From Bacteroidaceae bacterium (GTDB lineage Bacteria > Bacteroidota > Bacteroidia > Bacteroidales > Bacteroidaceae), in contig JAFTUK010000048.1 of assembly GCA_017466325.1 (NCBI GenBank), forward strand, positions 1-40,681: 40,681 nucleotides of DNA. Reading direction: 5' to 3'. A program made the translations under genes and the position numbers. The notes below the pieces were generated by a model that had not been told where the DNA came from, searched no databases, and saw only the letters and a program-made list of their open reading frames with translations. The stretch's first letter is position 1, and each line of letters begins with the position of its first letter. This document shows positions 16,171 to 31,362 of this stretch, piece after piece.

Positions 16171-16564
16171 ATTTCTTCATGCCTTATAATTCCGGTAGGG
16201 GGGCTCATGGTTCTTCTGTGGAATAACTTTTTTTCTGGGCAGTTTCGCTTGATGCTATGGAGGACGCTATTTGGTCCTTAGTGGCGGTAAAAAGAACCGC
16301 CACTGGCGGTGACTTTTGTCGCCACTGGCGGTGACCTTTACCGCCACCGAGGGTAATTTTGATACATGCTTGGAGTCCTTCGGTTTTATTCGTGGAAACA
16401 ATGATTTTGCCGATGAATCCCATGCAAGATCTGTTTCTGAAATCACTTGAGGAGGCATGTGTGTCAGGTGTCTCAATACTTGATTTATGTCGTTTGGATG
16501 CAAGATGAGAGTGTTCTATAATTCTCCAAGTTGTGTTTGCTATGGTGTGAATATGGCGATTCTT
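16171..16564. other. Non-coding gap upstream of the acyl operon
   Basis: About 390 bases without a convincing gene; two 72-78 codon minus-strand frames here look like chance. It contains a phased CGCCACTGGCGGTGAC repeat cluster (separate entry), with the operon promoter at its right edge. Confidence 0.6.
16280..16348. repeat. Phased GGCGGT/ACCGCC repeat cluster
   Basis: AGTGGCGGT (16280-16288) and ACCGCCACT (16296-16304) form a perfect inverted repeat. CGCCACTGGCGGTGAC occurs exactly at 16298-16313 and 16320-16335, starts 22 bases apart (two helical turns), and a further ACCGCCACC follows at 16339-16348. Operator or REP-like element are both possible. Confidence 0.75.
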
Positions 16565-16595
16565 TTTGTAAAACCACGTATTTTTAATAACTTTG
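16565..16595 (+). promoter_or_regulatory. Promoter of the 11-gene acyl-lipid operon
   Basis: TTTG at 16565-16568 and TAACTTTG at 16588-16595 with 19-base spacing form the best consensus Bacteroidetes promoter in the window. It lies about 80 bases before the first ATG at 16677; no other comparable site was seen in the short gaps of the operon. Confidence 0.8.
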
Positions 16596-16676
16596 TGCCC
16601 GTAAATGTTGTTTATTATAGAATATAATCATTAATAGGATTGTAGCCAGAAGCAGGTAGTGTTAACAGGGAAAGAG

Positions 16677-17810
16677 ATGGGAAAAATCAACGTCATAAAG
16701 GTTTCGACGAAGAAGGATTTGGATGCTTTTATTAAATTCCCTCTTGATTTGTATGCCGGCAACGAACAGTTTGTGCCGGAGATGGCCAATGATGTCCGTG
16801 ACAGTTTCAATCCCGAAAAGAATCACGGCCTGTCGTTTACCGAGGTTCAGGCATTCATAGCGGAAAGGGACGGCGAGGTTGTAGGACGTATTGCCGGCAT
16901 TATAAACACCAGAGCCAACAAGAAGTGGAATGCTTCCGTAGTACGTTTCGGTTACATAGATTTCATTGATGACCCCGAGGTAAGCAAGGCTTTGCTCGAT
17001 ACGGTAGTGGAGTGGGGCAGAGAACGGGGCATGACAGAGATACAGGGTCCGCTGGGCATTACAGATTTTGACAAGGAGGGTATGCTCGTCGAGGACTTTG
17101 ACCGCTTGGGTTCCATGATAGACATATACAATTATCCCTATTACCCCAGGCACATGGAGGCACACGGTTATTCCAAGATAACGGACTGGTTGCAGATAAG
17201 GGTGGAGGTGCCGAAGGAGGTTCCTCCGAGATATGCCCGTGTGGCCAGGCTGAGCAGCGAGATGTATGGTCTGAAGGTGCGCAAAATAACGTTGCAGGAG
17301 GCCTACAACGGAGAAGGGCGCAGGGTATTCGAACTGATGAACCAGGCTTACGCCCCATTGTTCGGATACAGTTCATTCACCCCAAATCAGATAGACTATT
17401 TCCTGAAGATGTATCTTCCTATCGCAGATATGGACTTGATTCCTCTGGTGGAAAACGAGAAGGGAGAACTTGTTGCCGCTGCCGTGACGATGGCCAGTAT
17501 GTCCAGAGCCTTGCAGAAATCAAAGGGCAAGTTGTTCCCCGTCGGTTGGTGGCACATGTTCAAGGCTCTGAAGATAAAGCACGAGGATACCGTTAACATG
17601 ATGCTTATCGCCGTGAGGCCGGACATGCAGGGCTTGGGAGTAAATGCCCTTATCTTCAATGACCTGATTCCCATCTATAACAAGAAGGGCTACAAGTATG
17701 CCGAAACAGGTCCCCAACTGGAAGATAATGTCAAGGAACTCAGTCAATGGAAGTCCCTGAATCCGGAAGTCATCAAGCGCAGGCGCTGCTATGGCATGAA
17801 GATAGATTGA
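16677..17810 (+). CDS. GNAT-fold acetyltransferase-like protein
   Basis: A 377-residue soluble protein with GNAT-like features: the N-terminal half has LSFTEVQAFIAERDGEVVGRIAGIIN and GPLGITDFDKEGMLVEDFD, and the C-terminal half ends with a GNAT-type core (MLIAVRPDMQGLGVNALIF; KYAETGPQLEDN). An in-frame GTG 18 bases upstream is a less likely start. It heads the fatty-acid-like operon. Possible roles are an N-acyltransferase using the pathway's acyl-ACP or acyl-CoA, or acylation of an amino-headgroup. No substrate can be read. Confidence 0.75.
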   Translation: MGKINVIKVSTKKDLDAFIKFPLDLYAGNEQFVPEMANDVRDSFNPEKNHGLSFTEVQAFIAERDGEVVGRIAGIINTRANKKWNASVVRFGYIDFIDDPEVSKALLDTVVEWGRERGMTEIQGPLGITDFDKEGMLVEDFDRLGSMIDIYNYPYYPRHMEAHGYSKITDWLQIRVEVPKEVPPRYARVARLSSEMYGLKVRKITLQEAYNGEGRRVFELMNQAYAPLFGYSSFTPNQIDYFLKMYLPIADMDLIPLVENEKGELVAAAVTMASMSRALQKSKGKLFPVGWWHMFKALKIKHEDTVNMMLIAVRPDMQGLGVNALIFNDLIPIYNKKGYKYAETGPQLEDNVKELSQWKSLNPEVIKRRRCYGMKID

Positions 17811-17861
17811 AATAGAAGTAAATACATTCGAGAAAGAAGAATCATTAAATACAAGACTATT

Positions 17862-19082
17862 ATGGAAAATAGAGTTGTTATTACAGGTATGGGAATCTGG
17901 TCTTGCTTGGGTCAGACCTTGGACGAGGTACGCCAGAGCCTGTATGATGGAAAGAGTGGTATCATATTCTCTCAGGAGAGAAAGGATATGGGTTTCCGCA
18001 GCGGACTCTGTGCCGACGTGCCCAAACCCGATTTGAAGAAATTGGTAAGCCGTACCATGCGCCAGTTCATGCCCGAGGAGGCACAGTATGCCTACATGGC
18101 CACAAAGGACGCTTTGGAGCATGCACGTCTGGATCAGGACTATATAGATTCTCACGAAGTGGGTATCATTTATGGTAACGACAGCGTTGCCGAGGCCACT
18201 ATGGTTGCCCTGGACCGTTTCCGCGAGTTTAAGGAGACCAGCGCCTGTGGCAGCGGTGCTATCTTCCAGAGCATGAACAGTACCGTTACCATGAACCTGG
18301 CATGTCTGTTCCGTCTCCGTGGCATCAACCTCACCAGCAGTGCTGCATGTGCAAGTTCCTCTTTGGCCATAGGCAATGCCTATCTCCTCATCAAGAACGG
18401 TTTGTCCGATTGCATCATCACCGGTGGTGCTCAGGAGGCAAACATGTACTGTGTGGCCAGCTTCGACGGTATTCAGGCATTCTCTACCCGTGAGGATGAA
18501 CCCACCAAGGCTTGCCGTCCCTTCGACAAGAACCGCGACGGCCTGGTACCTGGCGGCGGTGCTGCTACCATTATTCTGGAAAGTTATGAACATGCCGTAA
18601 AGCGTGGTGCTCCTATCCTTGCAGAAATCGTAGGCTGGGGCTTCAGCGGCAACGGTGACCATATTTCCACTCCCAATGTGGCAGGTCCTGCACGTTCATT
18701 GGAACTGGCTATCCGCAACGGCGGTGTCAATCCCCTGGAAATCGGTTATCTCAATGCCCATGCCACCAGTACACATGCCGGCGACGGACGCGAGGCAATG
18801 GCCATCAAGCAGATTTTCGGCGACTATGCCATTCCCGTCACTTCCACCAAGTCGCAGACCGGACACGAGATGTGGGCTGCAGGTGCTGCAGAGTGCATCT
18901 ACAGTATGCTGATGATGAAGAACGGCTTCATTGCCGGCAACATCAACTTTGAGGAACCCGACGAGGAGACTGCATGCGTGAATGTCATCCCCGAGACAAC
19001 AGAGAAGCATTTCGACATGTTCCTGAGCAACAGTTTCGGTTTCGGCGGTACCAACAGCACCCTTATCGTAAAGAACCTATAA
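17862..19082 (+). CDS. FabB-like beta-ketoacyl-ACP synthase (KAS I type)
   Basis: A 406-residue condensing enzyme with the Cys163-His300-His335 triad in SSAACASS, NAHATSTHAGDG and KSQTGHEMW. The sequence follows E. coli FabB closely in marker regions (GIIFSQERKDMGFRSG near the N-terminus; GFIAGNINFEEPDEE and SNSFGFGGTNSTLIV at the C-terminus), more than it follows FabF. It should condense malonyl-ACP with an acyl primer. Aryl-polyene and flexirubin clusters have two or more KS or chain-length-factor genes; only this one is present here. The ACP gene follows after 50 bases. Confidence 0.93.
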   Translation: MENRVVITGMGIWSCLGQTLDEVRQSLYDGKSGIIFSQERKDMGFRSGLCADVPKPDLKKLVSRTMRQFMPEEAQYAYMATKDALEHARLDQDYIDSHEVGIIYGNDSVAEATMVALDRFREFKETSACGSGAIFQSMNSTVTMNLACLFRLRGINLTSSAACASSSLAIGNAYLLIKNGLSDCIITGGAQEANMYCVASFDGIQAFSTREDEPTKACRPFDKNRDGLVPGGGAATIILESYEHAVKRGAPILAEIVGWGFSGNGDHISTPNVAGPARSLELAIRNGGVNPLEIGYLNAHATSTHAGDGREAMAIKQIFGDYAIPVTSTKSQTGHEMWAAGAAECIYSMLMMKNGFIAGNINFEEPDEETACVNVIPETTEKHFDMFLSNSFGFGGTNSTLIVKNL

Positions 19083-19132
19083 ATAAGAGACAAACCCCCA
19101 ATTATTAACATTATAACCAATTTTAATTGATT

Positions 19133-19372
19133 ATGACAAGAGAAGAAATTATCGAGAAGGTTATTGAAACCCTTTCAGAGGAATTTGAGGTAGAGCAGGA
19201 GGTTATCACCCCCGATGCAGTAATCTATGACACCCTGCAGCTGGACAGCCTGAGTCTCGTGGACCTGGTTGCCGTTGTTCAGTACACCTTCAAGGTTAAG
19301 ATTCCTGTTGCTGACCTGCCCAGTGTAAAGACATTCAACGACCTGTATGACTACATCGAGAGCCATCAGTAA
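19133..19372 (+). CDS. Acyl carrier protein
   Basis: A 79-residue acidic ACP with the phosphopantetheine serine at Ser39 in QLDSLSLVDL. The ATG at 19133 is taken over an in-frame TTG two codons upstream. It differs from a housekeeping AcpP in its DSLSLVDL motif and many Val/Ile residues, so it is a dedicated carrier. The next gene overlaps its end by 26 bases. Confidence 0.92.
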   Translation: MTREEIIEKVIETLSEEFEVEQEVITPDAVIYDTLQLDSLSLVDLVAVVQYTFKVKIPVADLPSVKTFNDLYDYIESHQ

Positions 19373-19781
19373 GATTGAAGAACTCATACCCCAGCGCTTG
19401 CCCATCATGATGGTGGACGAGCTGCTGAAGGTTGTGGGCGACGAGTGTACTTGTCGTCTGACAGTTCGTGAAGACAATTTCTTCCTCGAGGAGGACGGAC
19501 AGATGGCGGAACCTGGAGTGATAGAGCATATTGCCCAGAGTGCATCGGCATTTGCCGGGTATCGTGCTGTGGCCGAAGGTGCAACGGAACCTCCTGTCGG
19601 ATATATCGGCGAGGTGAAGAACTTCCGCCTTTACCGCCGCCCCAAATTGGGCGATGACCTCCAAACGACAATTACCATGGGAGCAACGGTGGCCGGAGTT
19701 ACCATCATCAACGCTGCAACCCTTGTCGGAGAGGAGACAATAGCAGAGACACAGATGAAAATCTTTGTCCGCGAGGATTGA
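19347..19781 (+). CDS. Hotdog-fold dehydratase-like protein (ApeP-like)
   Basis: A 144-residue single-hotdog protein. IEELIPQRLPIMMVDELL matches the FabZ/FabA family opening, and PGVIEHIAQSASAFAGY matches the central helix with the catalytic acid. The GHFPG segment carrying the catalytic histidine in FabZ is replaced by EDGQMAEPG, so it probably needs a partner. It resembles the ApeP class of aryl-polyene systems, known to pair with ApeI-type subunits. The ATG lies within the ACP gene (26-base overlap); no better start precedes the conserved core. Confidence 0.8.
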   Translation: MTTSRAISKIEELIPQRLPIMMVDELLKVVGDECTCRLTVREDNFFLEEDGQMAEPGVIEHIAQSASAFAGYRAVAEGATEPPVGYIGEVKNFRLYRRPKLGDDLQTTITMGATVAGVTIINAATLVGEETIAETQMKIFVRED

Positions 19782-19823
19782 ACACACTTATACTATACTA
19801 TACATTATATATAATATATATAA

Positions 19824-20195
19824 ATGCTATTAGAAAACAAGTTCTACAGGGTATTGTCCGAAGAACGGGGCGAAGGTCTCAGTGCAAAGTATCGTGTGGC
19901 AATACTTCCGGAATGTAATGTCTATGACGGGCATTTCCCCGGAGACCCTGTTTGCCCGGGGGTATGCAACATAGAAACCATCAAGGAATGTGCAATCCTG
20001 TTGTGTGGCGAGCAGTTGCGGTACTCCACAATCAAGCAATGCCGTCTGACGGCTTTGGCTACACCCACGGTTTGCCCGGAGGTTGACGTGCAGGTAAATC
20101 TTTCTCCATCAGGTGAGGGGTATGCGTTGCAGGCAACTATTGCAGATGACAGGCAGACTTATATGATTTTGAAAGGTCAATTGGATAAGGCATGA
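19824..20195 (+). CDS. FabZ/ApeI-like 3-hydroxyacyl-ACP dehydratase
   Basis: A 123-residue hotdog protein with the full motif YDGHFPGDPVCPGVCNIETIKE: catalytic His37 and Glu51 are in place. It is the catalytically complete member of the two-gene dehydratase pair and resembles ApeI. A very AT-rich stretch (about 19790-19822) precedes the ATG. Its stop overlaps the exporter start by four bases (ATGA), implying coupled translation. Confidence 0.82.
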   Translation: MLLENKFYRVLSEERGEGLSAKYRVAILPECNVYDGHFPGDPVCPGVCNIETIKECAILLCGEQLRYSTIKQCRLTALATPTVCPEVDVQVNLSPSGEGYALQATIADDRQTYMILKGQLDKA

Positions 20196-22690
20196 CAAGA
20201 TTATTTGTTAGGATATATCACTATTTGAGGAAACATCGGGCCATTATGTGGTGCTCGATGCTTCTCTTGTTTTTGTTCTGTGGCTGGTTTGCAGCCCAGA
20301 TACATCTGGAGGAGGATTTGAACAAACTGATGCCGTCGTCCAAGAATGAAGACGGCACGACCAAGTTGGCCTTTGCCAATTTAAGGATTAAGGACAAGAC
20401 TTTCCTGCTTTTCGAAGGCAAGGAAGGCACTACGCCCGAAGAGATAATAGAGTGTTGCGATGAATTTGTCGACTCATTGACAGCACAGAACGAGGCTCTG
20501 GACAGCAACAGGGTGTTTTCGGACATCTTCTATAGGTTGGATGACGACCTCATGCCCACAGCCATTGACTATTTGAGCCAGAACATTCCTGCATACATTG
20601 ATGCATCCATATATTCTTCCTTCGACACTCTGCTTACAGAAGAGCACATGTTGCAACAGATGCAGCAGAATGCCGAGGACTTCGACAGCGAGTTCGGCAG
20701 CATGTTCCCCGAACTTATCGAGATGGACCCCATAGGAATGCGCAATGTTTTGGCACGTTCCATGAAGGGCGTCATGGGCGATAAGGTCGGAGGTATTACT
20801 ACCGTAGACAACCACTTCTTTGTGCCCGATACAACGGTGTGCCTGGCATTCGTCTCGCCACAGTTCTCTGCCACCAACACGGGACAGGGCAACAAGATGT
20901 TTGACATCATCAACGGGGAGATCAAGGATTTCTCCGCCCGCCATCCCAATGTCCATATTTGCTACTATGGCACTCCGGCCAACGGATACTACAATTCCAC
21001 CACCATCAAGGGAGATTTGGTAGGTACGGTGGCATGGAGCGAAGTCATAGTGCTGCTGCTCTTGTTCCTTTGCATGCGCAACTGGAACACCATCCCCCTG
21101 CTGTTCCTGCCGGTAGCCTTCGGCACGCTGTTCGGATTGGCGGTAATGTACTTCATCAAAGGCCAGTTCTCGCTCATGGCACTTGGTATCGGAGCCATAG
21201 TGCTTGGAGTTGCCATGAGTTATGTGCTGCACATATTGGTGCACTACAAGTATGTAGGCAATGCGGAGCAGGTTTTGCGCGACGAGACCAAGCCGGTGCT
21301 TCTTGGCTGTGTGACAACTATAGGTTCGTTCATAGGCCTGCTGTTCGTCAAGACAGACCTTTTGCAGGACTTCGGCCTGTTTGCCGCCCTGGCCATTATC
21401 GGAACTACGGTATTCTCCCTGATATACCTTCCCCATCTGATGGAAATGGAGAAGAACAAGATAAACCGCAAGGCCTTTGCCCTGATTGATAAGTTCAATG
21501 CATACAGGTTCCACGAAAAGAAATGGTTGCTTGCCATCATAGCGATATTTACAATCACCTGCACTGCCGCGTATCTTTATAAGGGAACGTTGTTTGACTC
21601 TGATATGGCCAATCTCGGCTATGTCGACAAGGAAGTCAGCTATGCCAGCAAACTTTATCACGACAAGACGGCCACCGGTTACAACTCCACCTTCTTCGCC
21701 TCACAGGGCAAGACAATGGAGGAGGCCTTGGAGAACTTCTCTTTGCTGGAGTACAAGCTCGACTCGCTTCAAGAACTCGGACTCGTAAAGAAATACACTC
21801 CTATCAACAAGTTCTTCATTCCGTTGGATGTACAGCAGGAGAGAATAGATGCGTGGCATGAATATTGGAACGAAGAACGCCTCGGCAAGGTACGCACCCT
21901 GATAGCCAGGACTGCCCCCAAGGCAGGTCTTAATGCCGAAGGCTTTGAACCGTTCTTCGACATGGCAACCGCCGATTATGAACCCGAACCTCTTTACGAG
22001 GCAGGCATCATCCCCGAGGGGTATCTTTCCACCTTGATGGAGGAGACCTGGAACGGTGATTATCTCTGTATTACCAGCGTCCAGTACGAGGGAAAGGGCA
22101 GTGTGTCTGAAAACAAGGACTTCCTGAATATCTGCAATAGCATTGCCAGGGAACCCAACCTGCTTGTCATGAACACATCGTATTACACACAGGACACCCT
22201 GAGCGCATTGAACAGCGATTTCAATGTCCTGCAGTGGATGAGCATGGTATTCGTGTTCCTCGTGTTGCATGTCAGCTTCCACTTCAACCTCCGCAATACC
22301 ATTTTGGGTTTTGCGCCCATCCTGCTGAGTTGGATTATCGTGTTGGGAGCAATGGCGATATTCGGTATGCAGTTCAACCTGATAAACATCATTATATCCA
22401 CATTCATCTTCGGCATTGGTGTGGACTACAGCATCTTCGTCATGAACGGTTTGATTGCAGACAGGTACAATGGCAGCGCCGGCAGTGATATGCTTCGTTT
22501 CCACAAGACCGCCATCGTCTTCAGCGCGGTTATCCTGATTGTCACCGTGGCAAGCATGCTCTTTGCCAAGCACCCTGCCATACAGAGCGTAGGTTTCGCC
22601 ACTCTGGTGGGCATGGTCAGCGCCGTGGTGCTCAGTTATGTATGCCAGCCTGCCATATTCAAGTGGATGCACGACAGAAAACAAAAGTAA
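20192..22690 (+). CDS. MMPL/RND-superfamily lipid exporter
   Basis: An 832-residue membrane protein of the MMPL branch of the RND superfamily. A first helix (about 15-35) is followed by a large periplasmic loop, a block of five to six helices (about 280-460, with GIGAIVLGVAMSYVLHILVH), a second loop, and a second block (about 680-825, with FGIGVDYSIFVMNGLI carrying the proton-relay Asp). MMPL proteins in pigment and lipid clusters move acylated products across or out of the inner membrane. Four-base overlap with the upstream dehydratase and four-base spacing to the next gene indicate tight coupling. Confidence 0.9.
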   Translation: MTRLFVRIYHYLRKHRAIMWCSMLLLFLFCGWFAAQIHLEEDLNKLMPSSKNEDGTTKLAFANLRIKDKTFLLFEGKEGTTPEEIIECCDEFVDSLTAQNEALDSNRVFSDIFYRLDDDLMPTAIDYLSQNIPAYIDASIYSSFDTLLTEEHMLQQMQQNAEDFDSEFGSMFPELIEMDPIGMRNVLARSMKGVMGDKVGGITTVDNHFFVPDTTVCLAFVSPQFSATNTGQGNKMFDIINGEIKDFSARHPNVHICYYGTPANGYYNSTTIKGDLVGTVAWSEVIVLLLLFLCMRNWNTIPLLFLPVAFGTLFGLAVMYFIKGQFSLMALGIGAIVLGVAMSYVLHILVHYKYVGNAEQVLRDETKPVLLGCVTTIGSFIGLLFVKTDLLQDFGLFAALAIIGTTVFSLIYLPHLMEMEKNKINRKAFALIDKFNAYRFHEKKWLLAIIAIFTITCTAAYLYKGTLFDSDMANLGYVDKEVSYASKLYHDKTATGYNSTFFASQGKTMEEALENFSLLEYKLDSLQELGLVKKYTPINKFFIPLDVQQERIDAWHEYWNEERLGKVRTLIARTAPKAGLNAEGFEPFFDMATADYEPEPLYEAGIIPEGYLSTLMEETWNGDYLCITSVQYEGKGSVSENKDFLNICNSIAREPNLLVMNTSYYTQDTLSALNSDFNVLQWMSMVFVFLVLHVSFHFNLRNTILGFAPILLSWIIVLGAMAIFGMQFNLINIIISTFIFGIGVDYSIFVMNGLIADRYNGSAGSDMLRFHKTAIVFSAVILIVTVASMLFAKHPAIQSVGFATLVGMVSAVVLSYVCQPAIFKWMHDRKQK

Positions 22691-22694
22691 GTTG

Positions 22695-24116
22695 ATGACA
22701 AAGTCAGACATTATTATAATAGGTAGCGGACTCGGTGGCCTCGAGGTTGCCCTGATGATGGCCAAGGAAGGCCGGAAGGTTCTTGTTTTGGAGCGTCAGC
22801 ATCAGGCAGGTGGCTGTATGCAAAGTTACCGCCGCGGCCGCTTGAATTTCGACACAGGCCTGCATTATGTTGGCGGACTTGAAGAAGGCGGCCAACTGTA
22901 TGATGCCTTTGAAAGCCTTGGATTGATGACTCTGCCCTGGAAGCAGATGGATGCAGATTGTTTCGAGGAGATTCATATTGGCGGACGTACATTCCGTTGG
23001 CCTCAGGGCAAGAAGCGCTTCATCAATGCCATGAAGAGTTATTTCCCCGACGAGGAGAAAGGCCTGGACCTGTATGGCGAACTCCTTGACTGTACCGACG
23101 AACTTTGGATGCAGAAAACCAACGCCTGGGAATATCTGACTTCAATCATTTCCGACCCTCTGCTTCTGCAGGTGCTTTCCGCTCCTGCTACGTGCAAGAT
23201 GGAACTGCGCAAGGAAACGCTGCCCCTGTTCACCTATGTGCATGGCATAGCGCCTTTCATAGAAAGCAGTTGGCGTTTGGCAGGCGACGGCAATATGTTG
23301 GTGTCATGTCTGGTAGAACAGATACGCGCTTATGGCGGTGAGGTGCTGACAGACAAGGACGTCGTTTCCCTGAAGGAAGAGGATGGCCGGATTGTTCAGG
23401 CCCTGTGTGCCGACGGCACTTCCTACGAGGCCGACTTTTTCGTCAGCAATGCCCATCCTGCCGTAACATGTTCCCTGGTAGGGGAGAGTGCCCTGATGAA
23501 GAAGGTCTTCCGTCGCCGCATGGGCATGCAGCCCAACACCTTCGGCATCTTCACCCTGCACCTCCAGTTGCGAAGCGGTTCTTTGCCATATTTCAATCAC
23601 AACAAACTCGTCTTTGCAGAACCGGACTGTTGGGATATGGCAGTGGACAAGAGTCTTGCCGTAAAGGGCATAATGATGAGTGCCAGAATACCCGAAAAGG
23701 GCGGGAACGTGGTGAATATAGACATCCTTACCCCCATGCTGTGGGAAGTTGTGGAAGAATACGATGGCACCAAACTTTTCCACCGCCCCAAGGCTTACAA
23801 GGAGATGAAGGCCAGGGTGGCGGAGCAGTGTCTGGCTCTGGCAGAAACCGTTATCCCCGGTCTTGGCGAAATGATACTCAAGACCTGGTCAAGCACACCA
23901 TTGACCTACAAGGACTATAATCTGACACCCGAGGGCAGCGCCTTCGGTTTCCGGAAGGACTTCAGTAATCCCATGATGACCATAGTATCCCCCAAGACAC
24001 AGATCCCCAATCTGTTCATGACGGGGCAGAGTCTGATGCTTCATGGATTGCACGGAGTCACCATGACAGCGGCATATACATGTCAAGAGATAAATCAGAA
24101 CACAATTTCAGAATAA
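22695..24116 (+). CDS. CrtI/RetSat-like FAD-dependent oxidoreductase
   Basis: A 473-residue flavoprotein with an N-terminal dinucleotide fold IIIIGSGLGGLEVALMMAKEG (about residues 5-25), GGCMQSYRRG and FDTGLHYVGG, typical of the phytoene-desaturase / retinol-saturase group, and the C-terminal FAD-closing PNLFMTGQSLMLHGLHGVT. An upstream in-frame ATG at 22638 lies inside the exporter gene, so ATG 22695 is used. Related enzymes introduce or reduce double bonds in long conjugated chains; here it could saturate or desaturate the acyl product. Direction is inference. Confidence 0.88.
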   Translation: MTKSDIIIIGSGLGGLEVALMMAKEGRKVLVLERQHQAGGCMQSYRRGRLNFDTGLHYVGGLEEGGQLYDAFESLGLMTLPWKQMDADCFEEIHIGGRTFRWPQGKKRFINAMKSYFPDEEKGLDLYGELLDCTDELWMQKTNAWEYLTSIISDPLLLQVLSAPATCKMELRKETLPLFTYVHGIAPFIESSWRLAGDGNMLVSCLVEQIRAYGGEVLTDKDVVSLKEEDGRIVQALCADGTSYEADFFVSNAHPAVTCSLVGESALMKKVFRRRMGMQPNTFGIFTLHLQLRSGSLPYFNHNKLVFAEPDCWDMAVDKSLAVKGIMMSARIPEKGGNVVNIDILTPMLWEVVEEYDGTKLFHRPKAYKEMKARVAEQCLALAETVIPGLGEMILKTWSSTPLTYKDYNLTPEGSAFGFRKDFSNPMMTIVSPKTQIPNLFMTGQSLMLHGLHGVTMTAAYTCQEINQNTISE

Positions 24117-24130
24117 CTAAAGAGAACAAG

Positions 24131-26824
24131 ATGAAACGTTACATCCTATTCATATTTGCAATGTTCCTGCTCATACCGGCCTATGCCCAGTACATTACCG
24201 GCAAGGTGGTTGCAGACGATGATGGCATGCCGTTGGTCGGTGCAACGGTCTGGTATGAAGCGAATCCTGCCGCCAAGGTGAGGGTAGGCGAGGACGGACA
24301 GTTCCGGATCCGTTTCCGCAAGGGCACGTTGGTGTTCCATTGCTTTGGTTTTGATAACTATAAGACCGAGGTTACACGCACCCGTACTGTCAACGTCAGG
24401 CTCAAGCCCACTGCCATGGAAATGTCTGAGGTTGTTGTCAAGGCCGAGAAGAAGAAGTATAGCCGCAAGAACAATCCTGCCGTCGAACTGATGGAGAAGG
24501 TAATGGCGGCAAAGAAGTCCAGGGACATGCGTACCAACGACTATGTCAGTTACGAGAAGTATGCGCGTACCATGCTTGCCCTCAACGAGTTTACTGTAGA
24601 GTCTCTGGAACAGGACGAGAATCTGAAGGGCAAGGCCTTCCTCAAGAACTATGCCGAGGTATTCCCCGAAACGGGAAAGACCATTGTGCCCATCTCCATA
24701 GAAGAGAAGAAGACCACGGAACTCTACCGCAAGAGCGATGGCAAGAGCAAGAGCGTTGTCCACGGTCATCATGCGGAAAGCCTTCTGGATGTGATTGCCG
24801 CAGGTGAGTTCATCGAAACAAAGTTCAAGGACAACCTCAAGGATGTGGACATCTACAAGGACGAAATGGTCCTCCTGGAGCACAACTTCATCAGCCCCAT
24901 CGGAGGCAATGCCGCTATCCGCTTCTATCATTACGCTTTGGGTGATACCGTAGATCTCGATGGCGAAAAGTGTATCAAGGTAGCCTTCTCTCCCGGCAAT
25001 CCTCAGGACTTCGGTTTCAGCGGTTATCTGTACATCCTTGCCGACAGTACCTATCGTGTGCGCCGTGCCAAGTTCGGTGTACCTGTTGCCAGTGGCATCA
25101 ACTTCGTTGAGAAGATGGATGTAGACCAGGAATATGTATCCCTGCCATCTGGCGAACAGATATGCAGCAAGAACAGGATGATGATGCAGCTTAAACTGAC
25201 ATCATACATGAACAAGATTCTTGTAGACTACAATGTTGTCTACAGCGATTGGACCTTTGACCCCATACCCGATTCCGAAATGGACTTTATGGGTGACGAG
25301 CGTTATGAAAAGGAGGCCAAGTCACGCGGCAATGACTATTGGGTGGCAAGCCGTCCGGACACGCTCAGCTATGCCCAGGCAAACGTTGCCGAGATGAAAC
25401 GCCGTTTCGTTGACCAGCCCACCGTAAAGGCTGTTATCTACGGTATGCGTGTCATACTCGACAACTATCTGGAAACCAGCACCAACCCCAACAAACCCAG
25501 TAAGTTCGTCATTGGTCCCTTCACTTCCATCCTTGGACATAGCAAGGCAGAGGGTTTCCATGTCCGCGTGGGTATTCAGACAACAGGTGCCCTCAACAAG
25601 CATTGGTTCCTGAAGACATGGTTCAAGTACGGTTTCAAGGACAGGCGCCCCAAGGGCTATCTCGAACTGATATATTCGTTCAACGAGAAGGAGAAGGAGG
25701 TAATCGCATACCCCATCCGCACACTGTCGGTTTCTTATGCCAACGACATACAGAGCCCCACCGACAAGTACATGCAGTTCGACAAGGACAATGCCTTCAT
25801 GGCCATCACATGGAACTCTACCCACTTCCAGTCCTACTATGAGCGCTTCAAGTTCAAGTACGATTGGGAGTTCAGCAACGGCTTGCGCCTGAATGCCGCA
25901 TTCGTACACGAGACGAATACTGGCACGGGCGACCTCTACTTCAATACCCTTCGCGAATGGGACGATGCCAAGAGGATACAGGCCGACATTCAGAAGAACA
26001 TGAACACCTACGTTCCCCTGGACGAGGTCTTGCAGTCCAATAAAATCAAATACACCGAAATACAGTTGGGCATGGAGTATCAGCCCGGTGTCAAATACCT
26101 GAACACCAAGAACCAGCGCTTCCTTGCCAACAGAGAGGCTCCTATCTATGGCATCACACATACTGTGGGTATAAAGGGTTTCCTCGGAGGCGACTATAAC
26201 TACAACCATACAGAGTTTACCCTGAAGAAGCGTTTCTGGCTCAAGTCGTGGGGTAGCATAGACGCATTCCATAGCGCCATGTTCCAGTGGAACACCGTTC
26301 CTTTCCAGCTGCTGTGTCTGCCTCAGGCCAACCCCAGCTACATCCGCAACGACAACACCTTCTCCCTGATCCGCAACATGGAGTTCCTCAACGACCGCTC
26401 CTTCGCCATGATGTACCGCTGGAATCTGAACGGCAAACTCCTCAACCGCATCCCCCTTATCAAGAAGTTGAAATGGCGCGAGAACATCGGTTTCAACATG
26501 ATGTGGGGCTATCTCAGCGACAAGAACAACCCCTTCCGTTTCAACGACACCAGCCGTTATCCCGATGAGGCCAGCAAGATGGCAGACCCAGGTTATCAGT
26601 TCCTCTACAATATGCCCGGTGAATGGGTCAATATGGAGGACGGTACAAGGCAGTACCAGCCCATCACCCAGATTATGAACAGCTGGAAACCCTATGTGGA
26701 ATTGAATGTAGGTCTCAGCAACCTGTGGAAGTTCTTCAGCATAGACTACTACCATCGCCTCACCTATAACCGCCCCGGCACTCAGACGTGGGGCATACGC
26801 TTTGCCTTCGAGGCTTCTTTCTAA
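24131..26824 (+). CDS. DUF5686 outer-membrane protein with CarboxypepD_reg-like domain
   Basis: An 897-residue exported protein. A signal peptide (MKRYILFIFAMFLLIPAYAQ) is followed by a carboxypeptidase-regulatory-like beta-sandwich (about 22-105, ITGKVVADDDGMPLVGATVWY), then the DUF5686 region with long aromatic-rich beta strands, ending FAFEASF with a terminal Phe as in outer-membrane beta-barrels. ATG 24131 is chosen because the upstream in-frame ATG would bury the signal. DUF5686 proteins are Bacteroidetes-specific barrels of unknown function; the operon context suggests placing or exporting the lipid product at the outer membrane. Confidence 0.85.
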   Translation: MKRYILFIFAMFLLIPAYAQYITGKVVADDDGMPLVGATVWYEANPAAKVRVGEDGQFRIRFRKGTLVFHCFGFDNYKTEVTRTRTVNVRLKPTAMEMSEVVVKAEKKKYSRKNNPAVELMEKVMAAKKSRDMRTNDYVSYEKYARTMLALNEFTVESLEQDENLKGKAFLKNYAEVFPETGKTIVPISIEEKKTTELYRKSDGKSKSVVHGHHAESLLDVIAAGEFIETKFKDNLKDVDIYKDEMVLLEHNFISPIGGNAAIRFYHYALGDTVDLDGEKCIKVAFSPGNPQDFGFSGYLYILADSTYRVRRAKFGVPVASGINFVEKMDVDQEYVSLPSGEQICSKNRMMMQLKLTSYMNKILVDYNVVYSDWTFDPIPDSEMDFMGDERYEKEAKSRGNDYWVASRPDTLSYAQANVAEMKRRFVDQPTVKAVIYGMRVILDNYLETSTNPNKPSKFVIGPFTSILGHSKAEGFHVRVGIQTTGALNKHWFLKTWFKYGFKDRRPKGYLELIYSFNEKEKEVIAYPIRTLSVSYANDIQSPTDKYMQFDKDNAFMAITWNSTHFQSYYERFKFKYDWEFSNGLRLNAAFVHETNTGTGDLYFNTLREWDDAKRIQADIQKNMNTYVPLDEVLQSNKIKYTEIQLGMEYQPGVKYLNTKNQRFLANREAPIYGITHTVGIKGFLGGDYNYNHTEFTLKKRFWLKSWGSIDAFHSAMFQWNTVPFQLLCLPQANPSYIRNDNTFSLIRNMEFLNDRSFAMMYRWNLNGKLLNRIPLIKKLKWRENIGFNMMWGYLSDKNNPFRFNDTSRYPDEASKMADPGYQFLYNMPGEWVNMEDGTRQYQPITQIMNSWKPYVELNVGLSNLWKFFSIDYYHRLTYNRPGTQTWGIRFAFEASF

Positions 26825-26861
26825 AACAAAACCGAATATAAACGTATTACAACTACCGAAT

Positions 26862-27596
26862 ATGAAGTATGCACTTGTAACAGGCGGCAGCCGTGGCATC
26901 GGACGTGCCGTATGTGTCAAACTGGCTCAGATGGGCTATAATGTTCTCATAAACTTTGCAGGCAACATCACCGCTGCCGAAGAGACCCTGCGTCTTGTAC
27001 GCGAGGCAGGTACCGACGGCGAACTGATGAAGTTCGATGTCAGCAATGCCGAGGAGACCAGCTCCGCCATCGAAGCATGGCAGCAGGCTCACGAGGACCA
27101 GGACGAATACATAGAGATTCTTGTAAACAACGCCGGCATCCGCAAGGACAATATCATGGGTCTCATGCCCCAGGAGGATTGGATTAGCGTGCTTGGTGTT
27201 AGTCTCAACGGCTTCTACAACGTCACCCAGCCTCTGCTCATGCCCATGCAGTTCCACAAGTTCGGCCGTATCATCAATATGGCCAGTGTCAGCGGCATCA
27301 TGGGTATGCAGGGACAGACCAACTACTCGGCTGCCAAGGGTGGCCTTATCGCTGCCACCAAGGCTCTTGCCAAGGAAGTTGCCAAGAAGAACGTCACCTG
27401 CAACGCCATTGCCCCCGGTTTCATCAAGACCGACATGGTGGAAGGTCTCGACGAGGCGGCACTTAAGAAGACCATCCCCGCCAACCGTTTCGGCACACCC
27501 GAGGAGGTGGCAGAGTGTGTCGCTTTCCTGTGCAGTCCTCAGGCAGGCTACATCACCGGCAACGTCATTTCCATCAACGGTGGCCTGTACACATAA
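26862..27596 (+). CDS. FabG-like 3-oxoacyl-ACP reductase (SDR)
   Basis: A 244-residue short-chain dehydrogenase: cofactor motif TGGSRGIG (7-14), NNAG (89-92), catalytic Ser142, Tyr155 and Lys159 (NYSAAKGG), and C-terminal GYITGNVISINGGLYT. It should reduce the beta-keto group made by the operon's ketosynthase using NADPH. ATG 26862 is preferred to the frame's earlier ATG inside the DUF5686 gene. Confidence 0.92.
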   Translation: MKYALVTGGSRGIGRAVCVKLAQMGYNVLINFAGNITAAEETLRLVREAGTDGELMKFDVSNAEETSSAIEAWQQAHEDQDEYIEILVNNAGIRKDNIMGLMPQEDWISVLGVSLNGFYNVTQPLLMPMQFHKFGRIINMASVSGIMGMQGQTNYSAAKGGLIAATKALAKEVAKKNVTCNAIAPGFIKTDMVEGLDEAALKKTIPANRFGTPEEVAECVAFLCSPQAGYITGNVISINGGLYT

Positions 27597-27631
27597 TTTT
27601 TGTTACATAAACAAAAAGAATATAACAGAAA

Positions 27632-28216
27632 ATGAAGAAGATTCTTAGCTTCATATTCCTCTCCGTCCTCACACTGTCGTCTTTGGCACAGAACGTGGAT
27701 TTCCAGAAGGCCGTGGCCAAGTTCCGCGGAACGACAGGCGTAACTGCCGTTGCCACCCGTGTTGACCACAAGGCAGCCGTTGCCGAGGACGACAAGGCCA
27801 CAGGCACAATGGTTATACAGAGTCCCGACAAGATGAACATCAGTGTTGCCGACGGCAAGGAGCAACTGGACATGAACGGCGACGATTTCACTATGATTAT
27901 GCGTGGTCGCGAGTACAAGGCCAACAGCAAGAAGAACAACCAGTTCGTCGCTTTCCAGGCAGTACTTACCGCCATCATCAAGGGCGACGGCACGGGTTTG
28001 GCCGAGGTTCCCGGCGTCGAACTCACCCAGAAAGGCAATATCATTACCATACACATGGACCCCACGGTAGGTCAGGCCAAGAAGAAGCGCATGATGTTCA
28101 GCTCCTTCGTCATCACCTTGGATGTCAAGAAGGGAGAAATCCTTACCCTGCGCATGAACGGCCGTGGCAAGAACTATACCGAGTATAGCTTCAGTGGTTT
28201 TGTGTTCAAGAAATAG
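27632..28216 (+). CDS. LolA-like outer-membrane lipoprotein carrier protein
   Basis: A 194-residue periplasmic protein with a signal peptide (MKKILSFIFLSVLTLSSLAQ) and LolA/LolB-like beta-strand pattern (ATGTMVIQSPDKMNIS, FTMIMRGREYKANSKKNNQF, TLRMNGRGKNYTEYSFSGF). LolA-like proteins occur in aryl-polyene-type clusters and are thought to shuttle hydrophobic products between membranes. It is 35 bases after fabG-like and nine bases before the thioesterase. Confidence 0.8.
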   Translation: MKKILSFIFLSVLTLSSLAQNVDFQKAVAKFRGTTGVTAVATRVDHKAAVAEDDKATGTMVIQSPDKMNISVADGKEQLDMNGDDFTMIMRGREYKANSKKNNQFVAFQAVLTAIIKGDGTGLAEVPGVELTQKGNIITIHMDPTVGQAKKKRMMFSSFVITLDVKKGEILTLRMNGRGKNYTEYSFSGFVFKK

Positions 28217-28225
28217 CCCTCTCCC

Positions 28226-28648
28226 GTGGAAATAACAGACGTTTGCCGTGTTCCGGTAAAGTTCAGCGAGATAGACTCCATGCGCATAGTATGGCATGGC
28301 AACTACATCGTGTATTTCGAGGACGGTCGCGAATCCTTCGGCCGCCATTATCCCGGCATGGGTTACGAAGTCATGCAGGAGACAGGCATCTATGCCCCCA
28401 TCTACGACGTCCACACCCGTCACTATGCATCCTTGCAAATGGGGGATGTCGCCGTTATCCACACCACCTTCGTTCACAAGCGCGGAGCACGCCTCGACTA
28501 TAAATACCGCATATACCGCGAGCGCGACGGCGTCCTTTGTTGCGAAGGCGAAACTACCCAGTTGTTCATCGAACCCAACGGCGATTTGATGCTCGACTTG
28601 CCCGACTTCGTAAAGGCCTGGAAAGAAAAATGGCTGAAACAGCAATAA
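28226..28648 (+). CDS. 4HBT-type acyl thioesterase
   Basis: A 140-residue hotdog thioesterase of the YbgC/FadM class; EIDSMRIVWHGNYIVYFEDGRES matches the family active-site helix (Asp17, His24, Glu32). The start is a GTG nine bases after the LolA-like stop; no ATG precedes the conserved opening. It is the last gene of the operon, with a terminator 12 bases after the stop, and likely releases or transfers the acyl chain. Confidence 0.87.
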   Translation: MEITDVCRVPVKFSEIDSMRIVWHGNYIVYFEDGRESFGRHYPGMGYEVMQETGIYAPIYDVHTRHYASLQMGDVAVIHTTFVHKRGARLDYKYRIYRERDGVLCCEGETTQLFIEPNGDLMLDLPDFVKAWKEKWLKQQ

Positions 28649-28659
28649 CACAAATCAAG

Positions 28660-28700
28660 AAATGGAGAGAACCAATGCCGCTTCTCTCCATTTTGTTTAT
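28660..28700 (+). terminator. Terminator of the acyl-lipid operon
   Basis: AAATGGAGAGAA (28660-28671) pairs perfectly with TTCTCTCCATTT (28682-28693), loop of ten, followed by TGTTTATT. It also faces the convergent fic gene. Confidence 0.82.
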
Positions 28701-28756
28701 TGCCTCACATCGGTCATTAGCGCATAACAGTCTTTTGACCGGTTGGGGATAATATG

Positions 28757-30073
28757 TTACTCCTTTGCTCCTTTTATCAAAGCCTCGAAGTGCTGACCTC
28801 TAATATAGTTGAATTTGACTTTGTTGACAGGGACTTTTTCAACAAAACCTCTTTCGACCAATGCGTCCATATCCAATTTAACTGTGGGATGACTGACGGC
28901 AAACCTGTTTTGCAGTTCTTTGATGGTCAAGACCAAATGCGGATTCTCGTTCAGTAGAGATAGTATTACAGCCTGTCTATCGTTCAGATTGCCCAGTTTG
29001 ATAAAATCAAACGTTTGTTGTTGCTGGGATTTCTTGTCAATATAGTGTTTCAACTCTTTGAATGCCAGTTCCAACGCCCTCAAATGGTAGGTTATGAAAT
29101 ATCCAATATCGTTACCATCGGCTTCGGCATGCAAGTAGGCCTTTTCATAGCTTGCCTTGGATTTATATATAACTCTTGAGATAGAGAGGTATTCGGTCAA
29201 CCAATATCCACTCTTAAGCATATACCAATAAAACAGGGCACGTGCCGTTCTTCCGTTTCCATCGACAAAGGGGTGGACATAGGCAATCATGAAATGCACA
29301 ATGATAGCCCTGATAATAGGATGCACAAACACCTCTTTCTCCATATCATTGAAGAAATTACACAATGATTCTACAAACTCAGGTATGTCAGTATAACCGG
29401 GAGGTGTATGTACCACTTCATGTGTAATGCTATTCTCTACCACGATATTATCATTCTCTCTAAACCGTCCTTCATCTTCGGGGTTTTCAAGAGTCTTGTA
29501 TGTCATCAGAGAATGTATTTGTTGCAATAGTTCTTTGGTCAATGGCTTATCTTTATTCTCAACGATGAAACGGATAGAGACATAATTGTTGTAAATCATC
29601 TGTTCAGAACGGCTACGCGGAGATATTTCTTTTCGCAGCATCTCCTTAGCCACCTTTCTGGTTGTCGAAGCGCCCTCCATCTGACTGGAAGAAATAGCCT
29701 CTTCCATCAACGAAGATATGAGGTATTGTTCCTTACTCTTGTGAGGGATAAGTGAGTTGTTGCCCCACGAACCGCCAAAGTTCATGTCAAAGTAATGACA
29801 CAAACGCTGCATGCTATTCGTCAAGAAAAACGATATACCATACCTCTTCCATACCGTAAGCCCCTGAAGCATTCTACTAAACTTTACGCACGCCCACAGT
29901 TCAGCGGGTGCGATGTCTCCTGAGCCATCGGCAACTCTCTTGTATTTCACATCGGACCAATACAGGTATTTCTCATTGATTTCATCAACCAATTCCCTTA
30001 CCTCGGGCTTATTCATTAACGGAACGGCCTTAGCCATCAATTCATGGTTGAGTTGTGGAGAACTTTCAATCAT
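28757..30073 (-). CDS. Class II Fic family protein with C-terminal winged helix
   Basis: A 438-residue Fic protein. The catalytic motif HPFVDGNGR (267-275) is complete, so AMP transfer from ATP is likely. The inhibitory motif SSQMEG (129-134) lies N-terminal to the Fic core, defining class II (self-inhibited by Glu133). The last 80 residues contain NDRQAVILSLLNENPHLVLT and a winged-helix segment (RFAVSHPTVKLDMDALVERG). Its promoter region holds palindromic TGTAGATTCTACA sites, consistent with autoregulation by this winged helix. Base composition is more AT-rich than the operon to its left, as expected for an acquired gene. Target protein unknown. Confidence 0.92.
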   Translation of the reverse strand: MIESSPQLNHELMAKAVPLMNKPEVRELVDEINEKYLYWSDVKYKRVADGSGDIAPAELWACVKFSRMLQGLTVWKRYGISFFLTNSMQRLCHYFDMNFGGSWGNNSLIPHKSKEQYLISSLMEEAISSSQMEGASTTRKVAKEMLRKEISPRSRSEQMIYNNYVSIRFIVENKDKPLTKELLQQIHSLMTYKTLENPEDEGRFRENDNIVVENSITHEVVHTPPGYTDIPEFVESLCNFFNDMEKEVFVHPIIRAIIVHFMIAYVHPFVDGNGRTARALFYWYMLKSGYWLTEYLSISRVIYKSKASYEKAYLHAEADGNDIGYFITYHLRALELAFKELKHYIDKKSQQQQTFDFIKLGNLNDRQAVILSLLNENPHLVLTIKELQNRFAVSHPTVKLDMDALVERGFVEKVPVNKVKFNYIRGQHFEALIKGAKE

Positions 30074-30091
30074 ACTATTCTATATTTGGTG

Positions 30092-30175
30092 TAAAGATAG
30101 TACAAATACTTGTAGATTCTACAAAAATCTTCAAGAAATTACAAGAAATAGGTTAAAATTCTTGTAGATTCTTCA
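30092..30175 (-). promoter_or_regulatory. fic promoter with operator-like palindromes
   Basis: Minus-strand TATCTTTA (30092-30099) resembles a -7 box, and TTTG at 30122-30125 could be a loose -33 element (spacing 22). Between and over them lies the perfect palindrome TGTAGA-T-TCTACA (30111-30123). A near copy (TGTAGATTCTTCA) lies at 30163-30175, and the 12-mer CTTGTAGATTCT is exact at 30109-30120 and 30161-30172. Confidence 0.6.
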
Positions 30176-30497
30176 AACATCTACATAAAACTACAAGTTT
30201 CTTGCAACTTCCGAGTTTGCTGCCCCTTTGACAAACCTCCCTTTTGTTTCTTGCGTTTCCGTGTAATAGCAAATAGGCTTAAATGCAGTTTTCTCACATC
30301 GGGGGGATGATGTAGACGGGGTTGTTGCAGATTGAACGTCAGTTCGCTTTGCGGTCTTAAATCTGCTCACGCTCGGGGATGTAGGGACTCGGCATGCCGA
30401 GTCCGCTTATGCTTTGTTATCGGACACGGCTGCCGTGTCCCTACCATGCTCGCGCTTACTCGCAGTTTTCCGTTTTCCGATTTCACTTTTCCGTTCT
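30176..30497. other. Non-coding gap with REP-like palindromes
   Basis: No supported gene. Contains two G+C-rich palindromes (separate entry) and, near 30465-30480, a TTTTCCGTTTTCCG stretch shared with other gaps in the window. Confidence 0.55.
30382..30443. repeat. REP/BIME-like pair of inverted palindromes
   Basis: GGACTCGGCATGCCGAGTCC (30385-30404) is a perfect 20-base palindrome. GGACACGGC-T-GCCGTGTCC (30422-30440) is a perfect 9-1-9 palindrome. The first is preceded by GTAG and the second followed by CTAC, so the two units are diverged inverted copies of one module, as in BIMEs. No RAYT transposase is in the window. Confidence 0.7.
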
Positions 30498-30716
30498 TCA
30501 AGGTTCGCCCAGAAAGTCCTCTATCACCTTCATCTGCCTTAGTGTCAAGGTACGCTGGTTGGGTTGGTATCCTATTTCTGTAAGGGCTTCCAGAAGTCCA
30601 CGCGTCTTCACTATCTCATCCCGGAAATGGCGCAGGGCATTCTTGTAGTTGCACTCGGGGAAATAGCGCATGGCAACCCTGCCAAATTGTAGTGCATGTT
30701 TCTTTCTGTTTCTCAT
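30498..30716 (-). CDS. DUF4248 family protein
   Basis: A 72-residue protein matching DUF4248: RYFPECNYKNALRHFRDEI (approximately FPxxxxxxAxxxLxxWI), ALTEIGYQPNQRTLTLRQMKVIEDFLGEP with the conserved C-terminal LGEP. Function unknown; the family is frequent in Bacteroidales accessory modules next to M15 peptidases and VirE/DUF3987 helicases, as here. Last gene of the leftward module. Confidence 0.85.
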   Translation of the reverse strand: MRNRKKHALQFGRVAMRYFPECNYKNALRHFRDEIVKTRGLLEALTEIGYQPNQRTLTLRQMKVIEDFLGEP

Positions 30717-30761
30717 TTGCTTTTAGGTTATTAGGTGGACCCAGCGCCCCCCCGAATACTC

Positions 30762-30917
30762 GGACCCTCCCCCTTGCCCCTCCACAAGGGAGGGGAGTAT
30801 GATGTATCTGTAAAAGAGGGATTGATGGGTCATGGTTAATAGATTTTGTTAATGCTTAATATTCAATAGTCGGTTGTAATCACTCCCTCCCATAGAGGGG
30901 AGGGCTGGGGAGGGGTC
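30762..30917. repeat. GC-rich inverted-repeat element, copy A
   Basis: The left arm (30762-30800) contains CCCTCCACAAGGGAGGGGAG; the right arm (about 30858-30917) reads in from ATTCAATAGTCGGTTGTAA to a CCCTCC...GGGAGGG hairpin and GGGGTC. The arms are roughly inverted copies around a 55-60 base AT-richer core. The left arm differs from copy B at only 2 of 39 positions by eye. The right arm forms the 3' end of the M15 peptidase gene. Confidence 0.75.
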
Positions 30918-31316
30918 TTTCAGGCGCTTTGCCGAAACATGTATCCAATGTGTGTTTCCGTTCCTCTCCCATATCAGTTCATGCACGGCTGGCAGAGTCT
31001 TCAGGAAGGCCAGATACTCCAGCCCTTTCTCCACCGATGGCAAATGAATGTCTGCCGCCTCGCCTCGGAGGTGCTGGGAGTTCTTCACGCCACCCACGGC
31101 TCCATTCAGTTCGGGGCAACGGTAGCCGCTCGTTATCCTGATAGGCCCGAACCTGTCGCGCAGGGGCTGTAGCACCATGTGGCACAGGTATGCCAGGTTC
31201 AATACTTGCTCCACGCTGGAGCATTCGTTCTCTATGCCAAGTCTTTTAGCGGTGTCCGAGCGAGTGAACTCGCTCAGACGGAAGTTGGTTGATAGTTGCA
31301 TGTTGGTGTTATACAT
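30849..31316 (-). CDS. M15-type D-Ala-D-Ala carboxypeptidase / endolysin-like
   Basis: A 155-residue Peptidase_M15_3-type zinc peptidase, as in phage endolysins and Bacteroidales accessory modules. Zinc ligands lie in SQHLRGEAADIH and HWIHV; ITSGYRCPELNGAVGG is the standard lead-in. No signal peptide. ATG 31314-31316 or a second ATG five codons in (31299-31301) could start it. The last 22 or so residues (from about 133) are translated from interspersed repeat copy A, so the ancestral protein probably ended near RLKD. Confidence 0.85.
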   Translation of the reverse strand: MYNTNMQLSTNFRLSEFTRSDTAKRLGIENECSSVEQVLNLAYLCHMVLQPLRDRFGPIRITSGYRCPELNGAVGGVKNSQHLRGEAADIHLPSVEKGLEYLAFLKTLPAVHELIWERNGNTHWIHVSAKRLKDPSPALPSMGGSDYNRLLNIKH

Positions 31317-31330
31317 CGTTCAAAAACTAA

Positions 31331-31362
31331 CTGTTAAACTGTTAAACTGTTAAACTGTTAAA
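31331..31362. repeat. Octamer tandem repeat CTGTTAAA x4
   Basis: Four exact CTGTTAAA units span the end of the VirE-like gene and supply its last codons and TAA stop. Because the period is eight, TAA falls in every frame, and both strands contain TAA (TTTAACAG), so the block stops translation in all six frames. Confidence 0.85.

Follow-up and report, generated by a model that had tools for sequence, protein, structure and literature searches.

The window analysed here, the 40,681-nucleotide contig JAFTUK010000048.1, is one of 56 contigs (designated C44) in an 88% complete draft genome of 2.59 Mb from a Bacteroidaceae bacterium. On the evidence of its open reading frames (ORFs) and of family searches, it carries an operon of 11 genes, all on the plus strand (16677-28648), that is akin to the pathways for yellow-orange pigments without their aromatic parts, and that most likely makes an unusual unsaturated fat chain for the outer membrane. 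On balance, we favour the interpretation that this operon belongs to the flexirubin and aryl polyene (APE) systems as a reduced, non-aryl branch, and that it probably makes a conjugated polyene acyl chain, which would be anchored to a membrane lipid and carried to the outer membrane by a detachable export module. An earlier sequence-only reading had offered ‘acyl lipid or polyene’ as alternatives; given enzymes of flexirubin/APE polyene type, the two are better combined, a non-aryl polyene acyl lipid being likelier than either by itself. The same reading held an aryl pigment to be unlikely and an envelope acyl chain to be the better guess, which agrees with the absence of aromatic genes from the operon and, apart from two ligase-like matches, from 51 related loci. 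The operon was not found described in the literature searched, a scope within which most subscription papers do not fall.

The biosynthetic genes of the operon encode relatives of known APE and flexirubin enzymes. They comprise a FabB-type ketosynthase (KS) that is FlxC/ApeR-like and stands alone without a chain-length factor (CLF) (17862..19082; PF00109/PF02801), an acyl carrier protein (ACP; 19133..19372; PF00550), two hotdog dehydratases, DH1 (19347..19781) and DH2 (19824..20195), a CrtI-like flavin adenine dinucleotide (FAD) enzyme (22695..24116; PF13450, PF01593), a ketoreductase (KR) of the FlxB family (26862..27596; NF053542, 384.7 bits against a cut-off of 340) and an ApeK-like hotdog thioesterase (TE; 28226..28648; PF13279). 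For the KS, KR, DH1, DH2, ACP and TE, as well as for the MMPL exporter, the best match in the Escherichia coli APE cluster is the expected APE protein. The KR shares 46% identity with ApeQ and is thus of the ApeQ/FlxB type, and the KS shares 36% with ApeR, with ApeO also matched less well. The ACP, DH1, DH2, TE and MMPL proteins match their counterparts with E values of 1e-5 or better and identities of 20-30%, including 25% between DH1 and ApeP, 28% between DH2 and ApeI, and 28% between the TE and ApeK.

In a KS tree, the operon enzymes form one clade of 52 rows (the window and 51 others; support 96/98) beside six KSs of flexirubin type. The outgroup branches are saturated and the root is unreliable, so the direction ‘flexirubin first’ rests on gene content and not on the tree. 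Seven flexirubin-type clusters, three from the window's family (G165, G636, G680) and four from its class (G744, G897, G913, G938), were used for comparison, the gene list of G954 being set aside. In all seven, a PF00221 lyase is confirmed beside FlxB and the same KS family (694-714 bits). Genes for a CLF-like protein, a second KS and a second ACP are also part of these clusters, most of which hold MMPL, LolA, DH2 and CrtI-like genes, with some stretches ending before them. LpxL (PF03279) and GT2 (PF00535) genes were checked with Pfam in one such cluster each, and in contig C20 of the window's own genome. The identity to ApeR, the position in the tree and the lyase-bearing clusters together place the operon KS with the initiating ApeR/FlxC-type enzymes.

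Relative to the flexirubin systems (the Chitinophaga pinensis flx cluster, as given in excerpts of PMC3992019, and the seven clusters), the operon shares the FlxB family, the FlxC-type KS, ACP, dehydratases, thioesterase, LolA and exporter, but it lacks the lyase, CLF/second KS, ligase, LpxL, methyltransferase and GT2, and has GNAT and DUF5686 genes in addition. Its counterparts in the APE cluster of E. coli CFT073 (apeA-R, as excerpted from PMC8253772) are the ApeR-like KS, ApeQ-like KR, ApeI/ApeP-like pair, ACP, ApeK-like TE, MMPL and, weakly, LolA, whereas the ApeO/ApeC pair, the ApeH ligase, the ApeD and ApeJ transferases and the ApeB methyltransferase are missing. Family searches of the operon proteins bear out the claim that there is no CLF, lyase or aryl-CoA ligase among them. 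The window operon therefore looks, from its gene content, like a flexirubin-type cluster minus the aromatic, chain-length and head-group genes, including those for anchoring, plus GNAT and DUF5686 genes. In excerpts from the E. coli study, APE pigment is lost in most mutants deleted for core biosynthesis and transport genes, and an in vitro study cited there has ApeR acting in initiation (PMC8253772). An aryl-polyene-type cluster similar to flexirubin has been described in Bacteroides xylanisolvens (excerpt of PMC12940132), and it fits the second type of cluster discussed below (type 2), as distinct from the operon type (type 1).

The two dehydratases look, from their residues, like halves of one split APE-type enzyme. 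A His and a Glu have roles in the active site of FabZ dehydratases. In alignments of 15 sequences each, DH1 has an invariant Glu within EHIAQ and lacks the HFPG His, and DH2 keeps GHFP and has either Glu or Gln at the Glu position. DH1 is accordingly the ApeP-like half and DH2 the ApeI-like half, these being their best APE-cluster matches, and their pairing is predicted. Among 20 matches for DH2 in the PDB, the best is chain A of 6qsr, which we take to be ApeI:ApeP; for DH1, FabZ proteins come first and 6qsr chain B is seventh of 19. In APE clusters, ApeI and ApeP are described as forming a heterodimeric dehydratase that has one active site (excerpt of PMC8041823). The gene names given in the sequence-only reading hold with two amendments, namely this pairing and the first gene, which models as a tandem GNAT.

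The operon KS keeps Cys163, His300 and His335 in the window and in three near relatives, residues of a type whose catalytic role is known from FabB, and thus it looks competent. For the CrtI-like enzyme, similarity to CrtD/CrtI lies below the family cut-offs, and PDB sequence matches are too weak for a reaction to be named. Five of the seven flexirubin-type clusters hold relatives of it, and the stretches of the remaining two end before that point. It probably acts on the polyene chain, as an isomerase or desaturase. In six type-2 loci (L069, L070, L071, L074, L129, L151) the CrtI-like genes occur as tandem pairs, which in L074 form one high-scoring fused frame.

The reaction types are those of type II fatty acid synthesis (FabB, FabG, FabZ, ACP), and in the PDB the operon KS is nearest FabB, which supplies its top matches, and DH1 nearest FabZ. 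The operon differs in its split dehydratase, its own transport genes and the lack of an enoyl reductase among its eleven genes; a housekeeping enoyl reductase elsewhere was not searched for. A modified non-polyene fatty acid would be a conceivable product if the CrtI-like protein were a flavin saturase that replaces the enoyl reductase, or if the chain were taken after one or two rounds, with the GNAT protein N-acylating an amino acid or amine. CrtI-like families do include saturases and isomerases, the KS is FabB-like, DH1 is closer to FabZ than to 6qsr chain B, and the tandem GNAT is similar in fold to N-acyl- and N-acetyltransferases. However, the reductase is of the APE type, as is the division of residues between the two dehydratases, and a CrtI-like gene of the same family sits in flexirubin-type clusters, whose flexirubins contain a conjugated aryl-polyene (excerpt of PMC3992019). 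We consider this non-polyene product improbable.

Searches with a CrtI profile, which also pick up type-2 clusters, gave matches of E 1e-60 or better in 112 of the order's 393 genomes and in 75 of the family's 301. Eighty-seven loci were annotated, and 51 (window included) pass thresholds of at least 700 bits for the operon KS and at least 560 for CrtI. The loci set aside are L091, which is from the genome of L002, and 35 loci under a threshold that include type-2 loci, contig ends and split operons (L042-L045, L050, L056, L058, L060, L062-L065, L118, L119 and L130 are among the excluded). Among the named loci, the nearest lie in metagenome-assembled genomes of Bacteroidaceae and Prevotellaceae. 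The same gene order recurs in other contig contexts, which rules out chance neighbours as an explanation.

The genes missing from the operon were also sought beside the operon in its relatives, where their conservation had been named as the observation that would overturn the sequence-only reading. Lyase, CLF, second KS, LpxL acyltransferase and methyltransferase genes occur in 0 of the 51 loci within the stretches examined; ligase-like matches occur in two (L104, L108) and a weak GT2 match in one (L057). With the same models, ten type-2 loci yielded ligase in 9, CLF in 7, second KS in 7 and GT2 in 10. The lyase, LpxL and methyltransferase models gave none in these ten control stretches, outside which the genes lie, and have their source loci as sole control. 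An aryl polyene made by the window operon alone, from an aromatic starter activated by distant genes, would suit the kinship of nearly all its parts with flexirubin/APE enzymes. This is very unlikely given the counts just listed, the lack of CLF and methyltransferase in the operon, and the absence of a PF00221 lyase from the window's own genome (88% complete).

Genes not found in the stretch among the 51 loci are the KR (FabG; 13 loci), TE (15), DH2 (9), DH1 (6) and ACP (1), of which some reflect splits, some contig ends, and some are unexplained. In four genomes (G581, G687, G669, G553), GNAT-KS-ACP-CrtI-DUF5686 lie at one site and FabG-DH1-TE-DH2 lie together elsewhere (4/4). Near 7568-7802 in L106, the ACP reading frame is interrupted, through either assembly error or decay. 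The branch, which is missing the aromatic and chain-length parts, is patchy in the order: of 81 genomes in the window's genus, 29 have the operon KS.

The first gene of the operon (16677..17810) bears on where the chain might go. Its predicted model is a tandem-GNAT acyltransferase whose fold resembles N-acyl- and N-acetyltransferases; a sequence search of the PDB gave chance matches only, which made fold comparison necessary, and predicted models were compared by VIA-align. Among the 51 loci, GNAT is present in 30 and PlsC, at the head of the operon, in 13 (two within the window's genus), with both in 2 and neither in 10, such that 41 of 51 carry a tandem GNAT or PlsC. The earlier statement that the operon lacks acyltransferases is therefore only partly right. 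An LPG_synthase_TM gene is present in 8 loci and a CDP-alcohol phosphatidyltransferase gene in 5, with both in 3 and none of these loci carrying MMPL; each family was confirmed by Pfam in one example. Both PlsC and the phosphatidyltransferase belong to families of glycerolipid enzymes, from which we guess that the anchor is a glycerolipid.

A special case of a lipid-anchored polyene would be a polyenyl ether phospholipid of the fecapentaene precursor type, made in carriers with a plasmalogen synthase. Fecapentaenes are linked to plasmalogens and to Bacteroides, and DUF2229 is presumably the PlsA-type plasmalogen synthase. Aside from the PlsC genes at 13 of 51 loci, this idea draws on a DUF2229 match in 18 of 29 carrier genomes chosen by CrtI score, compared with 108 of 364 others (p 7e-4, uncorrected for kinship). 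However, the operon KS was seen beside CrtI in only 19 of these carriers, and when the KS is required the counts become 10 of 19 versus 116 of 374 (p 0.07). The window's own genome lacks DUF2229, and two 5 Mb genomes from its family, each a single contig (G636, G680), have a flexirubin-type cluster and no type-1 CrtI. Likewise, no gene paper on this subject was found in the literature searched. We dropped the fecapentaene precursor as the leading explanation on the KS-confirmed count and the own-genome result, and regard it as highly improbable even as a special case.

The export genes comprise an MMPL/RND-type lipid exporter (20192..22690; PF03176, with HpnN similarity below the cut-off), a LolA-like periplasmic carrier (27632..28216) and a DUF5686 outer-membrane protein (24131..26824), and thus both MMPL and a LolA-like carrier are present in the window. 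The carrier has no Pfam hit, matches NF053544 (LolA2_flexi) weakly (36.8 bits against a cut-off of 125), and matches its E. coli APE counterpart at E 0.03 only. The DUF5686 protein has a carboxypeptidase-regulatory-like N-terminus (PF13715 at 39-120 of the ORF) and a predicted barrel of Omp85/BamA type. It differs from members of the Omp85 superfamily (BamA, TamA, Sam50) in this N-terminus, in giving no POTRA hit with Pfam and in sharing about 10% identity, and its N-terminal half is barely covered by the fold search. The term ‘DUF5686’ appeared in no paper of the literature searched.

Both MMPL and LolA are present in 26 of the 51 loci and neither in 25, and within this set one is never seen without the other, a wider LolA model having recovered LolA in L120 and L122. 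DUF5686 is found in 22 of 30 GNAT loci and in 0 of 21 others. L001 has all eight biosynthetic genes, and exactly MMPL, DUF5686 and LolA are missing from its 21 kb; its genome (G981, of unstated completeness) yielded no MMPL relative, DUF5686 and LolA not having been sought there. These absences speak against the proposal that the operon's ‘own export route’ is a fixed part of it. Exporter and carrier instead come and go as a block, which provides a natural gene-content experiment that separates chain-making from chain-placing genes. In L117, DUF5686 is in two pieces, through assembly error or decay.

From the observed gene content, family kinship, residue pattern, co-occurrence and model folds, we infer the following reactions, substrates, product and export order. 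The lone FlxC/ApeR-type KS would extend an ACP-bound chain by malonyl units, probably from an ordinary short acyl primer. FlxB would reduce each 3-keto group, and the DH1:DH2 pair, with one composite active site, would remove water. Because the operon encodes no enoyl reductase, the double bonds should stay and yield a conjugated polyene acyl chain. The CrtI-like flavoenzyme would then isomerise or further desaturate this chain, and the thioesterase would edit or release it. The tandem GNAT, replaced by PlsC in many distant relatives, would transfer the chain to an acceptor lipid of the membrane, in the simplest case a glycerolipid. This lipid would be taken out of the inner membrane by MMPL and passed to the LolA-like carrier, with the Omp85-like DUF5686 barrel helping to place it in the outer membrane.

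A more specific version of this scheme, which we offer only tentatively, is that a pigment pathway has turned into a membrane-lipid pathway. Here a single KS without a CLF would make a non-aryl conjugated polyene acyl chain, GNAT or PlsC would anchor it on a glycerolipid, and the detachable MMPL, LolA-like and Omp85-type proteins would deliver lipid, not protein, to the outer membrane. DUF5686 would then be a candidate for an Omp85-type protein that places lipids, and gut-type anaerobes are predicted to contain a polyene membrane lipid, which could be sought directly.

Several observations weigh against the non-aryl polyene lipid that we favour. The CrtI-like enzyme could instead be a saturase, and GNAT folds also acetylate small molecules, the acceptor here being only putative. 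In ten of the 51 loci the stretch holds no GNAT or PlsC gene, and MMPL and LolA are missing from half. Outside the 51, LolA occurs without MMPL in the stretches of L042-L044 and L119, and MMPL without LolA in L130; the separation in G229 (L042, L130) reflects an operon split in two parts there. The FabG-DH1-TE-DH2 sets that have split off in four genomes diverge more and score below the in-operon copies, their genomes count as one event because they form one clade, and G609, which lacks a DH2 relative, is an exception. An E. coli strain mutated in apeR still produced the main APE lipid, such that apeR is perhaps dispensable, according to excerpts of PMC8253772; a lone ApeR-like KS acting as extender would therefore be new, without precedent in E. 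coli.

Other points on the same side come from a second APE/flexirubin-like operon in the window's genome (C20:12449-25330; L088). It encodes a methyltransferase, an LpxL-type acyltransferase, a DH, a CLF-like KS, an ACP and a KS, together with LolA, DH2-like, GT2-PlsC fusion, esterase-like and MMPL genes. Genes for KS/CLF, LpxL and GT2-PlsC are thus encoded elsewhere in the same genome. The C20 operon lacks FlxB, the FlxC-type KS, thioesterase and CrtI, functions that the window operon has. Among 81 genomes of the genus, the type-1 KS occurs in 29 and the C20-type KS in 32, with both in 20, type 1 only in 9, C20-type only in 12 and neither in 40. This co-occurrence is above chance (p 1e-4, uncorrected for kinship and with most genomes incomplete), and on that account the two types may share work in some genomes.

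The two operons could accordingly be halves of one pathway to an aryl polyene, in which C20 gives the CLF, KS, methyltransferase, LpxL and GT2 and borrows the ketoreductase, FlxC-type KS, first ACP, thioesterase and CrtI of the window operon. Consistent with this arrangement, the type-1 KS is present in 8 of 9 type-2 genomes of the genus without a FlxC-type KS, compared with 12 of 23 that have one (p 0.10). However, G1046 (88% complete) has a C20-like KS of 98% identity and no type-1 KS, no ammonia-lyase is found in the window's own genome at its stated completeness, and nine of the 81 genomes carry type 1 without the C20-type KS, although many are incomplete and one counted among them, G1023, has a FlxC-type type-2 KS.

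A KS census adds to these objections. The window's own genome has four KS-type genes, namely FabF, the operon KS, and the KS and CLF of the C20 operon; recovery of the last confirms that the census detects CLFs. Six of the 29 carriers (G258, G105, G078, G182, G135, G221; 95-99% complete, all among the 19 with the operon KS beside CrtI) have only two Ketoacyl-synt_C genes, of which one scores as FabF and the other lies where the operon KS is. This rules out a CLF supplied from elsewhere as a general rule. An elongating KS-CLF pair is absent from the operon and present on another contig in the window's genome; type 1 stands alone in general, and sharing with C20 is possible in this genome. We consider the two-operon aryl polyene unlikely overall.

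The boundaries of the operon agree with those first proposed. With starts set by comparison with homologues, the intergenic gaps in gene order are 51, 50, -26, 42, -4, 4, 14, 37, 35 and 9 bases, as expected from the tight spacing and overlap that had been described; several longer overlaps of the raw ORF list are artefacts of upstream start codons. A Bacteroidota-type promoter match (16565..16595, plus strand; TTTG-N19-TAACTTTG) is the sole TTTG-N17..22-TAnnTTTG match in the window on both strands, but simulation expects 0.7 by chance, and it is a plausible promoter without statistical significance. In the 400 bases upstream of the cluster in L001, L002 and L005, a promoter-type match is present in L005 alone. 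The proposed hairpin terminator was recovered, with a core stem at 28663..28690 (plus strand) followed by TTTTGTTT. The fold of 28655-28705, at -16.8 kcal/mol, also pairs part of the T run with A's before the stem, and a simple terminator scan of the window did not pick up this hairpin.

L001, L002 and L005 carry the cluster in different surroundings, which argues that the operon is a unit of its own. Sequence constraint within it is uneven: the KS and ACP are 96-100% identical to those of L001, L002 and L005 (the ACP also to that of L003), and DH2, MMPL, CrtI and LolA are only 69-86% identical where present. A PF13622 search of the window's own genome gave no match. Palindromic repeats with CGCCACTGGCGG lie at 16281-16347, about 220-285 bases upstream of the promoter, as two full copies and two half sites; no full copy was seen in L001, L002, L005, L088, L089 or L156. 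Downstream of the operon on the minus strand (28757-33731) are genes for a Fic-family protein, an M15-type peptidase and a BT4734-like protein, the latter two of which are common in Bacteroidales mobile elements.

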